Shown piece after piece: positions 126 through 47,604 of a stretch of DNA of 64,000 bases. A model generated the notes under the pieces. That model ran no database searches, was not told the DNA's origin, and saw only the letters and a program-made list of their open reading frames with translations. The position numbers were made by a program, and so were the translations under genes. The DNA is from Psychrobacillus psychrodurans (GTDB lineage Bacteria > Bacillota > Bacilli > Bacillales_A > Planococcaceae). Each line of letters opens with the position of its first letter. Position 1 is the stretch's first letter. Where the stretch lies: contig FOUN01000011.1 in NCBI GenBank assembly GCA_900114885.1, positions 62,001 to 126,000 on the forward strand, given 5' to 3'.

Positions 126-512
126 ATGTTCCATTTACTAAGACTGCTTATTTTGATACTTATCATATATGTTTTTTATAAAATTCTTCGCTACTTATTT
201 GATCCTAAGCGTAAACTGGATGAGGCATATGAAAAAGAACAGTATTATTATTATGATGAGGTAAAAAATGTTCGTAAAAACTTCTTTATCACGTATAAAG
301 GGATCCTATTTGAGGGAGAAAAATATTTAGGTACTACCGACCAAGCCTTCGAAGTCGTTTCTATCTTTATTTGGACAAAAGATCCAGCTAAATTACAGGG
401 CTTTACAAAAGAAGACTTACGTTTCTTACAAAATGAAATTAAAATGAATTACCCAAATGCCAAAATAAACTGGAAAAGCCCTATTGAGCAATTAATGCGG
501 GATGACCAGTGA
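126..512 (+). CDS. ysdB: YsdB-like SigW-pathway protein
   Basis: A 128-residue protein with one hydrophobic N-terminal helix (about residues 3-24) followed by a charged, Tyr-rich cytoplasmic-looking domain. Length and organization match B. subtilis YsdB (about 130 aa), named a sigma-W pathway protein with no known activity. The ATG at 126 is chosen because AAGGAGG lies just upstream. A longer reading from the TTG at 60 would place the promoter inside the gene. It sits divergent from and downstream of the infC-rpmI-rplT-ysdA cluster, as in Bacillus, and ends in a strong terminator. Its function is unknown; membrane attachment is inferred from the helix. Confidence 0.85.
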   Translation: MFHLLRLLILILIIYVFYKILRYLFDPKRKLDEAYEKEQYYYYDEVKNVRKNFFITYKGILFEGEKYLGTTDQAFEVVSIFIWTKDPAKLQGFTKEDLRFLQNEIKMNYPNAKINWKSPIEQLMRDDQ

Positions 513-522
513 AAATAAAAAA

Positions 523-554
523 CGGTTAGCCGAGAGTTTTCGGCTAACCTTTTT
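523..554 (+). terminator. Intrinsic terminator after ysdB
   Basis: GGTTAGCCGA (524-533) and TCGGCTAACC (540-549) form a perfect 10-bp stem followed by a T run. It starts 11 bp after the ysdB stop codon. Confidence 0.9.
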
Positions 555-1159
555 GTGATTGATCGATAAAAAATATCAAATATTTAACTATAGGAAACAC
601 CCTACATGAATGTTGAACTTTCCGCATGCTTCGCTTGTAACCTTCAAGGATGGATCGCGATCGCTATCTTTCGTCCCTTCACCCCTTTTGAAGTCTCATT
701 CTTTGCGCTCTTACGGCTCGTAATGCGCACATCCTAGGGACCACTGTGATGTAGAATTTTCTTTTTACAGATCATCCATCGGATAATTGAAGTATTGATG
801 GATATATTTTTCGTTCCGCAAGTAAATAAGCTTCTTAAGCAAGTAAACTAACAATCTGCACAAGTAATCTCTGAAGGATGACAAGTAAGTAAAATTCAAG
901 AGCAAGTAAATGGTTTTGTATATGTAATTTCTCTCTCTTAATTATACTAGTCAATAGCGACTCTTGTAGATACAGGTAGATATAATCGGATGACCTAGGC
1001 AAGCCAGTACAAGTATGGATTAGTATCATTTTGTTTATTATTTTGGCTATTGTTAAAGGCTATGTTTCACTTAAAATAACGGAGCAGTTTAGTGTAATAA
1101 GGGTTCTATTTAATCCACAAAATTAAAGCTAAGATAAAAATTTTTTTTGGGGGGATAAA
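555..1159. other. Gene-free stretch between ysdB and the DUF3953 gene
   Basis: No credible gene is visible on either strand. Positions 600-760 are less AT-rich than their surroundings and look like decayed repeat or coding DNA that I cannot assign. Positions 819-909 hold the 21-bp-period array listed separately. The reading frame across the array on the minus strand (835-1029) has no ribosome-binding site, and its apparent Leu-Leu heptads simply follow from the DNA period. Confidence 0.6.
819..909. repeat. Five CAAGTAA heptamers at exact 21-bp spacing
   Basis: CAAGTAA begins at 819, 840, 861, 882 and 903. The four intervals are all exactly 21 bp, and the 14-bp stretches between the heptamers are unrelated to each other. 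Two turns of B-DNA is about 21 bp, so all copies would face the same side of the helix. On the minus strand the heptamer reads TTACTTG. No flanking gene explains the array. The position just before the first copy and just after the last do not match. Confidence 0.9.
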
Positions 1160-1162
1160 TTG

Positions 1163-1396
1163 ATGAAAAAAACTAGAATTGTATTTGCAATAATTGCTTT
1201 TTCTTTATCTTGTTATAGTCTGATAAGTAGAGATTTTGATTTAATGCCGATTGTAATGATGTGCTTAGGGGCATTTATGTTAGCGTCAGGATTATACGAA
1301 CTTCAAAAAGACCGGAAAAGATTTGAAGGATATTTATTCATTATTGTCTCTTTATTTCTTTTCACTATTACCATAACGGGTTTGTTATTGAACTAA
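1163..1396 (+). CDS. Small membrane protein, DUF3953 (YczI-like)
   Basis: A 77-residue protein with three predicted membrane helices (about 6-22, 28-45 and 57-76) and a short charged cytoplasmic-looking loop (ELQKDRKRFEG) between the second and third. The pattern and length match the DUF3953/YczI family of Bacillales, which has no assigned function. A G-rich ribosome-binding site (1149-1154) precedes ATG at 1163; a TTG immediately upstream is the alternative start. The gene stands alone in a repeat-rich region, with no evident operon partner. Assignment is from recall of the family, so moderately sure. Confidence 0.7.
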   Translation: MKKTRIVFAIIAFSLSCYSLISRDFDLMPIVMMCLGAFMLASGLYELQKDRKRFEGYLFIIVSLFLFTITITGLLLN

Positions 1397-4245: not shown

Positions 4246-6174
4246 CTATTGGTGTGCTACTTCTTCTTTCAAACGTTCTAAGAACTCTCCAAAAGGAATG
4301 CTTTCTGATTTTTGTTCTCCGTATTTACGAACGTTGACATTACCTGCTTCTAGCTCTTTATCTCCTAGTACAAGCATGTATGGAACTTTTTGCATTTGTG
4401 CTTCACGAATCTTATAACCTAGTTTTTCTTCACGATCATCCATTTCAACACGGAAACCTGCCGCTACTAATTGCTCTTCTATTTGTTTAGCAAATTCAAA
4501 ATGCACTTCATTGGAAACTGGAATTATTTCAACTTGAACAGGTGCTAACCAAGTTGGGAATGCACCTTTATATTCTTCGATTAAGAATGCTACAAAGCGC
4601 TCCATCGTTGAAACAACCCCGCGATGGATAACAACAGGACGATGCTGCTTGCCATCTTCACCAACATAATTTAAGTCAAAGCGTTCAGGTAACAAGAAGT
4701 CTAGCTGAACAGTCGATAAAGTTTCTTCTTTGCCAATCGCTGTTTTCACTTGAACATCCAATTTTGGTCCGTAAAATGCCGCTTCATCTTCCGCTTCAAA
4801 GTAATCTAAACCAAGCTCGTCCATCGCTTCTTTTAACATGCTTTGTGCCTTTTCCCACATTTCATCGTTATCAAAATATTTTTCTTTGTTTTGAGGATCA
4901 CGATAAGAAAGACGGAAAGAATAGTCTTCTAAGTTAAAGTCTTTATAAACCGAAATGATTAATTCTACAACTTTTTGGAACTCGGATTTGATTTGGTCTG
5001 GACGTACAAATAAATGCGCATCATTTAAAGTCATTCCGCGAACACGTTGTAATCCTGATACTGCACCTGACATTTCATAACGATGCATTGTCCCTAACTC
5101 TGCAATACGTAACGGAAGGTTTCTATAAGAATGCATACCATTTTTGAACACCATCATATGATGTGGACAGTTCATTGGGCGTAGTACCAATGTTTCGTTG
5201 TCCATTTCCATTGGCGGGAACATAGAATCTTGATAGTGATCCCAGTGACCAGAAGTTTCATAAAGCTCTTTCGAACCTAATACTGGTGTATATACATGTT
5301 TGTAACCTAATTTAAGCTCTTTATCTACAATATAACGCTCAATAACACGACGGATTGTCGCTCCATTTGGTAACCAAAGCGGTAAACCTTGACCAACTTT
5401 TTGAGAAGTTGTAAATAAATCTAGCTCTTTCCCAATTTTACGGTGATCACGTTCTCTTGCTTCTTCTAACATATTTAAATGATGAGTAAGCTCTTCTTTT
5501 TTAAAGAATGCAGTACCGTAAATACGTTGAAGCATCTTGTTATCACTATTTCCACGCCAGTATGCACCAGCAATGCTTAATAGCTTGAACTCTTTAAGTT
5601 TCCCAGTAGATGGAACATGAACTCCACGACAAAGGTCAAAGAAATCTCCTTGCTCATAAATAGAAACTTGTTCACCTTCAGGGATTGCTTCTAATAATTC
5701 TACTTTGTATTCATCTTCTTTAAATTTATCAAAAGCAACTTGACGAGAAACATCGTGGCGAATGATTTCTATATTTTCATTAATTATTTTTTTCATTTCT
5801 TTTTCGATTAATGGTAAGTCTTCCGCAGTAATCGGCACTGGTGAGTCAATATCATAATAAAAACCATTTTCAATAACTGGTCCAATACCCAATTTAACAT
5901 CTTTGAAAAGGCGTTTAACTGCTTGCGCAAGTAAATGTGCCGAACTATGGCGCAAGATTTCTAGAGCCTCGTCAGATTCCGGAGTAATAATTGCGATATC
6001 TCCATCCTCAGTGATTGGTGTTTTAAGGTCAATTAATACTCCACTTAGTTTTCCAGCAAGTGCTTTTTTACGTAAGCCAGGACTTATCGATTGGGCAATT
6101 TCTTCTGTAGTTGTAGATACAGGGAATTCCTTTACTGCTCCATCTGGAAATTTCAATTTAATAATTTCTGCCAT
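4246..6174 (-). CDS. thrS: Threonyl-tRNA synthetase
   Basis: A 642-residue class II synthetase that attaches Thr to tRNA-Thr. In order: an N-terminal TGS domain (about 1-63); an editing domain with HSSAHLLAQ (around 77), which hydrolyzes mischarged Ser-tRNA; the catalytic core with the zinc-site segment RPMNCPHHM and class II motif 2 region; and a C-terminal anticodon-binding domain from about 545. The ATG at 6174 follows AAAAGGAGTG; an upstream in-frame extension has no ribosome-binding site. Length equals B. subtilis ThrS (643 aa). A Thr-specific T-box lies upstream but is separated from the gene by about 770 bp of repeats. Confidence 0.99.
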
Positions 6175-6195
6175 TTTGAACACTCCTTTTATAAT

Positions 6196-6224
6196 AAGAA
6201 AAACCGGGCAAAAAGACTCCCGGT
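6196..6224 (-). terminator. Terminator-like hairpin directly ahead of thrS
   Basis: ACCGGG (6219-6224 on the complementary strand) and CCCGGT (6203-6208) form a 6-bp GC-rich stem with a 10-nt loop, followed by five T residues, about 30 nt before the thrS start. The 5' arm could instead pair with a preceding CGGTTC segment, so two exclusive structures are possible. Whether it regulates is unknown. Confidence 0.45.
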
Positions 6225-6242
6225 CCTTTAAGAACCGAAACA

Positions 6243-6815
6243 TATATATGCCGTTGATTTCCGCTCCGGGCGGACGCTTTCCGTGGGCACGGCTTCAATC
6301 TCCTCGTCACTCCGTTCCTGCGGGGCTTTCAGCTCGCGCTATACCCACTGGAGTCGCCGCCCTGCGCTCCAATCAACCATGTCCACTTGAAGTAAAAGAA
6401 TAATTGAAGTCAATAGTACTTACTATTTCATAGTTTATTTGGAAATAAGTAATGTTGAAATGAACTCTAGTACAAAGAAATTTTACTGTCTACATCTATC
6501 ATTGAATAACAGCATTTCTAATTCAACAGCGATCACAGATGATGTTTTCACTAAATAAAATTGGACCAATCTTATCATCTAAGCGATAGGCTTTGCCAAA
6601 TCTTATAATGGAGTACTACACACTAGTTGATTGTAGTGAAATGTGGCGACTCCAGCGGGAATAGCGTTAGGCGAAGACCCCGCAGCACAGCGAGGAGGCT
6701 GAGGCAACGCCCGCGGAAAGCGTCCACATGTAACGGAAATCACAGGATTATTCATTCTAAAAATCTCAAGAACCCAGTGTTCACGGTACATTTTTATATA
6801 CTTTCTTATTCTTTT
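6243..6815. repeat. Composite repeat A between the T-box and thrS
   Basis: A GC-rich arm (about 6247-6384, reverse orientation) and a second arm (about 6622-6815, forward) flank about 230 bp of AT-rich DNA. Shared elements are ATTTCCGCTCC..GGCGGACGCTTTCCG on the left and GCGACTCCAGCGGGA, GACCCCGCAG, GAGGAGGCTG, CGCGGAAAGCGTCC and AACGGAAATCA on the right. The forward arm continues to AGTGTTCACGGTACATTTTTA. Copies of the arms, and in part the spacer, recur at 12050, 18955 and 29690. No reading frame in it looks like a protein. Confidence 0.85.
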
Positions 6816-11929: not shown

Positions 11930-12622
11930 ATAATAAAGTCGATATTTTCAAATAACTTTTCATTGGTTCAGTAGAGCTAAGGAACAAAGACAAAACCTGT
12001 TACTACCGATTTTAGGAAGCCTTTGGACATACAGTTATTCACTTAATTAAGACATAGATATGCCGTTGATTTCCGCTTTATATAATCGAATAATTGGATA
12101 TAAAACCATATAAATATACGTATTTTATCTTAAAATAAGTAGGGATGAAATGGACTCAGATAAAAGAAAGCCTACTTGCTTCTTTCATCATAAAATAGTA
12201 TGCACCTAATCGGCAGACGATTTTTTCCCTATAATAAATTTTGATAACTCTAATTATCTCAGCGATATGCTTGCTCTATCTCCGGAGTGGAAAACTACAC
12301 TCTATATTGATTGAAGTGTAAGGGGACGGCACAGTGGGATGAGTGATACAGATGAGATATCACATCGATCACCCCACGGAGGCTAACAGGATGTTGGTCA
12401 CGAAGGCGTTGCCACACGATGTGGCGCTCTTAGATTTGAACCCCACCTGAAACGGAAATCAGTGGGTTAACATTTCTTTTAAGTCCCATGAATCAAGTGT
12501 TCACAGGACATCTTTATATACTTTTAATCTTTTCAAAAAAGCACCAGAATATTTACCTTCTGGCGCTTCTCTTATACTTTATATATTAAATACTAACTAT
12601 TTGCGTTTAGTTTTCAGTTTTA
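11930..12622. other. Gene-free interval between gapB and coaE
   Basis: About 700 bp with no gene. Most of it is a composite repeat A copy (listed separately). A hairpin near 12533-12570 (AGCACCAGAA..TTCTGGCGCT) sits at its coaE side. Confidence 0.6.
12050..12530. repeat. Composite repeat A, left arm eroded
   Basis: The left arm is reduced to ATATGCCGTTGATTTCCGCT (12059-12078), identical to the start at 6247. The spacer shares words with the 6401-6610 spacer and, in reverse, with 19140-19310. The right arm (about 12300-12530) carries TTGATTGAAGTG, GATGTTGGTCACGAAGGC, CCACCTGAAACGGAAATCAG and the outer tail AGTGTTCACAGGACATCTTTATATAC. It is more diverged than the 6243 copy. Confidence 0.75.
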
Positions 12623-47562: not shown

Positions 47563-47604
47563 GGGTGTGGGTGTGGGTGTGGGTGTGGGTGTGGGTGTGG
47601 GTGT
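47563..47604 (+). repeat. Seven perfect GGGTGT tandem units
   Basis: Seven uninterrupted copies of GGGTGT (42 bp) in an otherwise AT-rich interval. Seven GGG runs spaced by TGT could fold into a two- or three-layer G-quadruplex on the plus strand. The tract is a likely slippage site. Confidence 0.97.

Follow-up and report, generated by a model that had tools for sequence, protein, structure and literature searches.

The 64,000-nucleotide stretch of the Psychrobacillus psychrodurans genome analysed here (the window) carries, near its start, five exact copies of the heptamer CAAGTAA on the plus strand (819..909), and the question is what kind of sequence such an evenly spaced series represents. 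The heptamers start at 819, 840, 861, 882 and 903 and are separated by 14-bp spacers, so that the sequence bears out the exact 21-bp steps on which the original prediction was built. A sixth heptamer in phase is absent, position 924 reading GTAATTT, and one 21-bp period ahead of the first heptamer lies a leader, ATGGATATATTTTTCGTTCCG (798..818, plus strand). In the whole window, CAAGTAA occurs 19 times against 13.75 expected from shuffles, with 14 scattered copies outside the array, so only the phasing is unusual. Tandem Repeats Finder reports no repeat at the array, which argues that it is not an ordinary tandem repeat.

Across the genome (4.0 Mb in 47 contigs), three CAAGTAA units in 21-bp phase were found 104 times and two units 234 times, against 0 and 1 for the respective reversed controls. 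These counts exclude chance genome-wide. Forty genome stretches that were fetched follow a common plan, in which a leader of about 21 bp is followed by heptamers in 21-bp phase, canonically six, over about 133 bp in all. The leader family has approximately the form TTGG(A/T)(A/T)AA(A/T)TTATCC.TTCCG and contains the imperfect palindrome GGATAAATTATCC. Six is the modal number of units (48 of the 67 phase runs in the genome, with up to two mismatches per unit tolerated), and in tandemly multiplied loci (for example L147, L151, L169 and L170) the repeat unit is mostly one entire six-unit element. Among the matches listed, homology between unlike subfamilies (L149/L150, L157/L149, L170/L158) spans roughly the interval from the start of the leader to the last heptamer; longer shared flanks are found in one subfamily. 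Profile R1, a sequence-only model of 133 positions built from 24 elements with the window copy left out, has at least 108 matches in this genome (150 candidates scored), and it matches the window at 799..916 on the plus strand with 63.6 bits and an E value of 9e-19 (profile positions 2-119). Among 172 distinct units of the genome, the block YGA[GC][AC]G-CAAGTAA-AY is semi-conserved, and unit spacings slip to 19, 20 and 22 bp. The array is thus one copy, with five units in place of the canonical six, of a genome-wide dispersed non-coding element. The leader, the six-unit plan and, as described below, the position behind genes and the species dialects come in addition to what had originally been noticed.

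The window copy lies behind a gene at 126..512 on the plus strand (128 aa from the ATG at 126; a longer frame from the TTG at 60 gives 150 aa), the product of which is without a Pfam match at E 1e-8. Read by eye, an intrinsic terminator of this gene follows at 524..554 on the same strand, with a 10-bp stem GGTTAGCCGA/TCGGCTAACC and five T; it is co-stranded with the array and 243 bp from the leader. The next small ORF downstream (1160..1396, 78 aa) is also on the plus strand, which makes the element a sense copy in a co-directional gap. At the orthologous loci of 18 out of 18 relatives, each covered over 3.3-3.4 kb, no CAAGTAA array is present. In one of them, G009 (L188 near 2411, minus strand), a phased array of the CAACCAA/CAATCAA type occupies the opposite strand, which may mean that arrays of different dialects arise preferentially in this gap. 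Upstream of the array, at about 675-736 of the window, there is also a second dispersed repeat of about 62 bp, with 84-85% identity to stretches near the arrays L170 and L177.

Barring short or antisense ORFs over some arrays, the loci examined are gaps between crude ORFs. When gap classes were assigned from crude ORFs of at least 100 aa, 39 arrays of the genome fell between two called ORFs: 15 in convergent gaps, 17 in co-directional gaps in sense, 6 in antisense and 1 in a divergent gap, compared with 7 convergent, 25 co-directional and 11 divergent among array-free gaps. Hence 32 of the 39 placed elements stand behind a gene on their own strand; divergent gaps are avoided (p 0.004; convergent to divergent, p 0.001), and the sense orientation is preferred (17 of 23, p 0.035). 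In other Bacillales, where 24 of 30 loci were taken into the placement and terminator counts, 10 elements are in sense, none in antisense, 9 in convergent gaps and 1 in a divergent gap (sense, p 0.002; convergent to divergent, p 0.018), the avoidance of divergent gaps alone being non-significant in these 24 loci (p 0.15). The partly orthologous loci of the relatives G004, G007 and G008 comprise 13 sense, 6 antisense, 12 convergent and 2 divergent cases, with a non-significant sense bias (13 of 19, p 0.17). The elements often stand beyond the terminator of the upstream gene: a strict detector found a terminator upstream of the array at 15 of 42 loci in the own genome and at 12 of 24 in other Bacillales (13 of 25 before L040, a locus-end artefact, is dropped), against 22 of 200 random stretches. 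In 9 of the 12 cases from other Bacillales it lies within 30 bp of the leader. A sense terminator within 150 bp downstream of the array was detected in only 1 of 42 and 3 of 25 loci, respectively.

No shared neighbour gene was found: 20 of the 30 upstream proteins were scanned and proved varied and mostly housekeeping, among them proteins of the leucyl-tRNA synthetase, arginyl-tRNA synthetase, FtsZ, CTP synthase and GatB types, with two giving no match. Gathering at the chromosome terminus was rejected by eye, since arrays do not cluster opposite dnaA (2.198 Mb in G004, 2.144 Mb in G008); the terminus was judged from dnaA only, a dif-like pattern being found in G003, G012 and G015 and not in the own genome (G000), G004 or G008.

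Comparison of orthologous arrays indicates which parts of the element are maintained. Ten pairwise alignments, not independent of one another, were used, namely nine comparisons with six own-genome loci and one between two relatives, the tandemly multiplied pairs L150, L151 and L153 being left out. Heptamers differ at 20 of 384 bases (5.2%), leaders at 40 of 210 (19%) and flanks at 337 of 1934 upstream and 430 of 2216 downstream (17-19%), and spacers differ at 160 of 572 (28%), a figure inflated by partial misalignment of L161 with the first array of L283 and of L168/L269. In the 121 interior units of the own genome, the central G and T are changed in two units each, positions 1-3 and 6 in one to three, and position 7 in ten. 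Within the genome, the two central bases are thus no more variable than positions 1-3 and 6, which suggests that the word is recognised at the level of single bases, despite its species-specific spelling. The loci themselves turn over: only 12 of the 33 array loci of G004, G007 and G008 have both flanks in common with one of the 40 own-genome array loci fetched, and the other 21 have no partner among these 40, so the elements come and go.

The spacers, for their part, carry a pattern of their own. A/T content oscillates at 10.5 bp beyond the contribution of the heptamer itself, an A/T patch lying roughly half a unit away from the heptamer, and in all ten groups the wave exceeds the mean of the spacer shuffles. 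It was reached by none of 500 spacer shuffles in eight of the ten groups, by 2 of 500 in Metabacillus and by 13 of 500 in G300, and is weaker in the own genome than in Fictibacillus, Ureibacillus and G006. The view that the heptamer is conserved and the intervals are not therefore needs amending: heptamer and phase are indeed better kept than the intervals, but the 14-bp spacers are not wholly free sequence.

The original prediction mentioned similar 21-bp arrays in other Bacillales, and such arrays do exist, for example in Fictibacillus and Metabacillus. Among the matches listed, named records with exact arrays belong to these two genera and to Ureibacillus, Planococcus, Psychrobacillus, Piscibacillus and others. 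Fictibacillus has a different leader, and 6 of 10 loci there likewise count six units, while the four Metabacillus loci have 5, 5, 5 and 7 units and never six. Counting the own genome in both sets, exact three-unit CAAGTAA arrays are found in 5 of 61 genomes and 3 of 398 Bacilli. Profile R1 (150 candidates scored per genome) matches 14 of 19 congeneric genomes, three of them once, and gives no match in the other 5; copy numbers among relatives range from at least 108 through 65, 58, 56 and 45 down to 0. So patchy a presence means that the element is not essential.

The spelling of the heptamer varies by species, forming dialects of the type CAANNAA. The Psychrobacillus relatives G006, G009 and G014 use CAACTAA or CAACCAA, in G006 partly behind a similar leader, GGATAAAATATCC; CAAACAA, CAAGCAA, CAAGGAA, CAATAAA and CAATTAA were met among the 398 Bacilli. 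CAANNAA occurs four times in phase in 20 of 61 genomes, of which G022, G035 and G043 have control counts close to the real ones, and in 33 of 398 Bacilli (19 of 145 genera), of which G080, G262, G043 and G035 have the same count as the reversed control. Fourteen of these 33 have at least four matches and at most one in the control, G278 and G299 among them resembling coding repeats by eye. After these caveats, clear multi-copy sets are present in about 12 genomes. Matches outside Bacillales (cyanobacteria, Bacteroidetes and others) were judged visually to be ordinary tandem repeats and excluded, since most of those listed have near-identical spacers or periods of 7 or 14 bp; much-alike spacers also occur in arrays of Kurthia, Neobacillus niacini, Bacillus sp. 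522_BSPC and Aquibacillus. The Neobacillus niacini array (L095:835-1063) has 12 CAAGTAA units, mostly at 20-bp spacing, and its much-alike spacers end in TATCCG, which recalls the Psychrobacillus leader. In G032, from another genus of the same family, CAAGTAA arrays lie on a single strand at C1:444366-445509, 472769-473395 and 1175304-1176154, the first of these sites containing a 103-bp higher-order repeat (4 x 21 + 19). In the viral collection, 26 stretches have a match. No report of such arrays was found in the literature searched, the coverage of which is partial, with subscription journals little represented.

The words are direct repeats without palindromic symmetry that share one helical face, they most often number six and are under constraint, and A/T content varies with a period of one turn. 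Together, these features point to a protein-bound DNA site, and the position behind genes suggests a role at borders. The explanation that we favour, and to which we give roughly an even chance of being right, is that the array, as a copy of the dispersed element, is a DNA site to which a protein attaches at the 3' margins of transcription units, by cooperative binding or by wrapping the DNA. Behind a short leader, the protein would make six base-specific contacts (CAAGTAA here, other CAANNAA words elsewhere) on one helix face, two turns apart. The second A/T patch, about half-way between contacts, gives the DNA a one-turn A/T wave over about 130 bp, which would make it easier to bend or wrap. 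The six sites would be occupied cooperatively, either by a protein that reads the sequence or by a DNA-wrapping complex that such a protein recruits. Once bound, the protein or complex would mark where transcription units end on their 3' side; the simplest ways of doing so would be to stop read-through or to deal with the supercoils accumulating behind genes. The original suggestion of a protein array is compatible with the two-turn phasing. A more specific version, which we put forward tentatively and consider possible though rather doubtful, is that of an undescribed chromatin element of Bacillales 3' borders, a six-site phased module of about 133 bp whose dialect would be read by a co-evolving DNA-wrapping protein and which would insulate neighbouring units from read-through or supercoils. 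High turnover, patchy presence, the lack of a common neighbour, the unit numbers in Metabacillus and the spacing slips speak against the favoured explanation.

Its main rival is a selfish, MITE-like mobile element without a host role, whose leader and heptamers would be recognised by a transposase acting in trans and whose copies would persist in harmless gaps. The dispersed copies with fairly sharp ends (among the matches listed), the large differences in copy number between relatives, the tandemly multiplied loci, the few shared loci and the absence of the window copy from 18 relatives are all consistent with mobility, and the species dialects resemble co-evolving pairs of transposase and repeat. 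However, an inert copy should decay evenly, whereas copies shared with G004, G007 or G008 retain their heptamers although the spacers and flanks around them have diverged. Terminal inverted repeats and target duplications were not noticed on unsystematic inspection, and the sense bias requires an additional assumption, so that we regard this explanation as unlikely, if the strongest of the alternatives.

The remaining alternatives place the signal in RNA, in DNA uptake or in a peptide. A read-through RNA with six GCAAGUAA words that binds an RNA-binding protein or a regulatory RNA would suit the sense orientation behind genes; yet terminators, where found, are far more frequent before the array than after it, and the 21-bp phase and the 10.5-bp A/T wave have no obvious meaning in RNA. 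Moreover, there are no consensus pairs over 24 element copies, the nine Psychrobacillus copies folded all have a positive z (on average poorer folding than shuffles), and the only Rfam matches in the window, a T-box and a Bacillaceae-1 RNA, lie away from the array; this reading is accordingly quite improbable. If the word marked DNA of the own species for uptake or for a comparable form of self-recognition, as the uptake sequences of Neisseriaceae do, dialects around a common core and sites near terminators would be accounted for, but uptake labels are typically scattered single words, and in the window the single word is not in excess outside the array (14 against 13.75 for the whole window). 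We also know of no sequence-specific DNA uptake in Bacillales, and we regard such a label as very improbable. The alternative raised originally, a coded heptad peptide with a Leu-Leu repeat on the minus strand, could draw on a 64-aa ORF over 835-1029 (minus strand) and on the equality of 21 bp and seven codons. Neither an open frame nor spacing in multiples of three is maintained: stops interrupt each minus frame in 19-34 of the 172 units and each plus frame in 49-172, and slips of 1-2 bp and other spacings (19, 20, 22, 41) break the frame, which refutes the peptide for the own genome. The central dinucleotide varies from one species to another and the bases on either side of it are fixed, which matches no codon pattern, and the idea has next to no credibility left.

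If the preferred reading, a protein-bound site at 3' borders, is placed among known systems, several partial likenesses emerge. Direct repeats about two helical turns apart are typical of cooperative binding, and plasmid iterons and centromere repeats of about 20-22 bp share this spacing; in contrast to them, the element has at least 108 profile matches, dispersed behind ordinary genes, with only about 7 bp per unit strictly conserved. Strictly speaking, the array is thus not iteron-like, as had been proposed: it occupies many loci and no replication origin, and the 20 upstream proteins scanned include no initiator. The bcr repeats of Bacillus cereus, like BOX and RUP, are short dispersed intergenic repeats of Firmicutes and resemble the element in this respect, although to our knowledge none of the three has a phased heptamer core. 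The pneumococcal interspersed repeats, BOX and RUP among them, are treated in PMC3049150. The DNA uptake dialects of Neisseriaceae (PMC3630211) have a common core with species-specific positions and are alike in this, but the word discussed here is a feature of phased arrays only, single words being unenriched in the window.

The BIME-2/REP sequences of enterobacteria and strong gyrase sites are likewise intergenic and present in many copies per genome. Part of PMC2817692 describes REP sequences as palindromes that alternate in orientation within BIMEs, whereas the Psychrobacillus element consists of direct, non-palindromic heptamers, canonically six, in 21-bp phase and without a conserved hairpin. 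It shares the intergenic location and a number of copies above 100 per genome (at least 108 profile matches), but it is not a member of the REP/BIME family because it has no palindromic unit: no consensus pair was found over 24 copies, the heptamer is not palindromic and the leader palindrome is imperfect. The excerpted account in PMC6379681 attributes to gyrase sites a phased G/C variation of about 10 bp and to Escherichia coli gyrase a preference for phased DNA; a comparable phased A/T-G/C variation over about 130 bp is present in 10 of 10 groups of arrays. Within the same account, the sites that gyrase cleaves are over-represented behind strongly transcribed operons, this enrichment is not hard-wired by the motif, and the BIME-2 signal is not reduced when transcription stops (PMC6379681). 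By analogy, gyrase-binding BIME-2 may be regarded as the nearest functional parallel, which does not imply family membership.

If the array is indeed a protein site at gene ends, about a hundred protein-binding modules would stand in such positions in this genome, with similar sets in other Bacillales, and would provide a genetically simple model for bacterial chromosome borders. Such elements are easily overlooked, since only about 7 of 21 bases are strictly conserved and the word depends on the species. We infer that protein and dialect would have co-evolved, and the dialects turn the search for the binding protein into a direct co-variation problem. Even if selfish, the element would stand out among dispersed repeats by its unusual selective signature.

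Elsewhere in the window, the T-box leader (RF00230, 6968-7200, minus strand, 93.9 bits) lies upstream of an ORF at 4246-6243 whose product reads like a threonyl-tRNA synthetase, and the Bacillaceae-1 RNA (RF01690) is at 12383-12449 on the minus strand with 43.4 bits. Seven perfect tandem copies of GGGTGT occupy 47563-47604.
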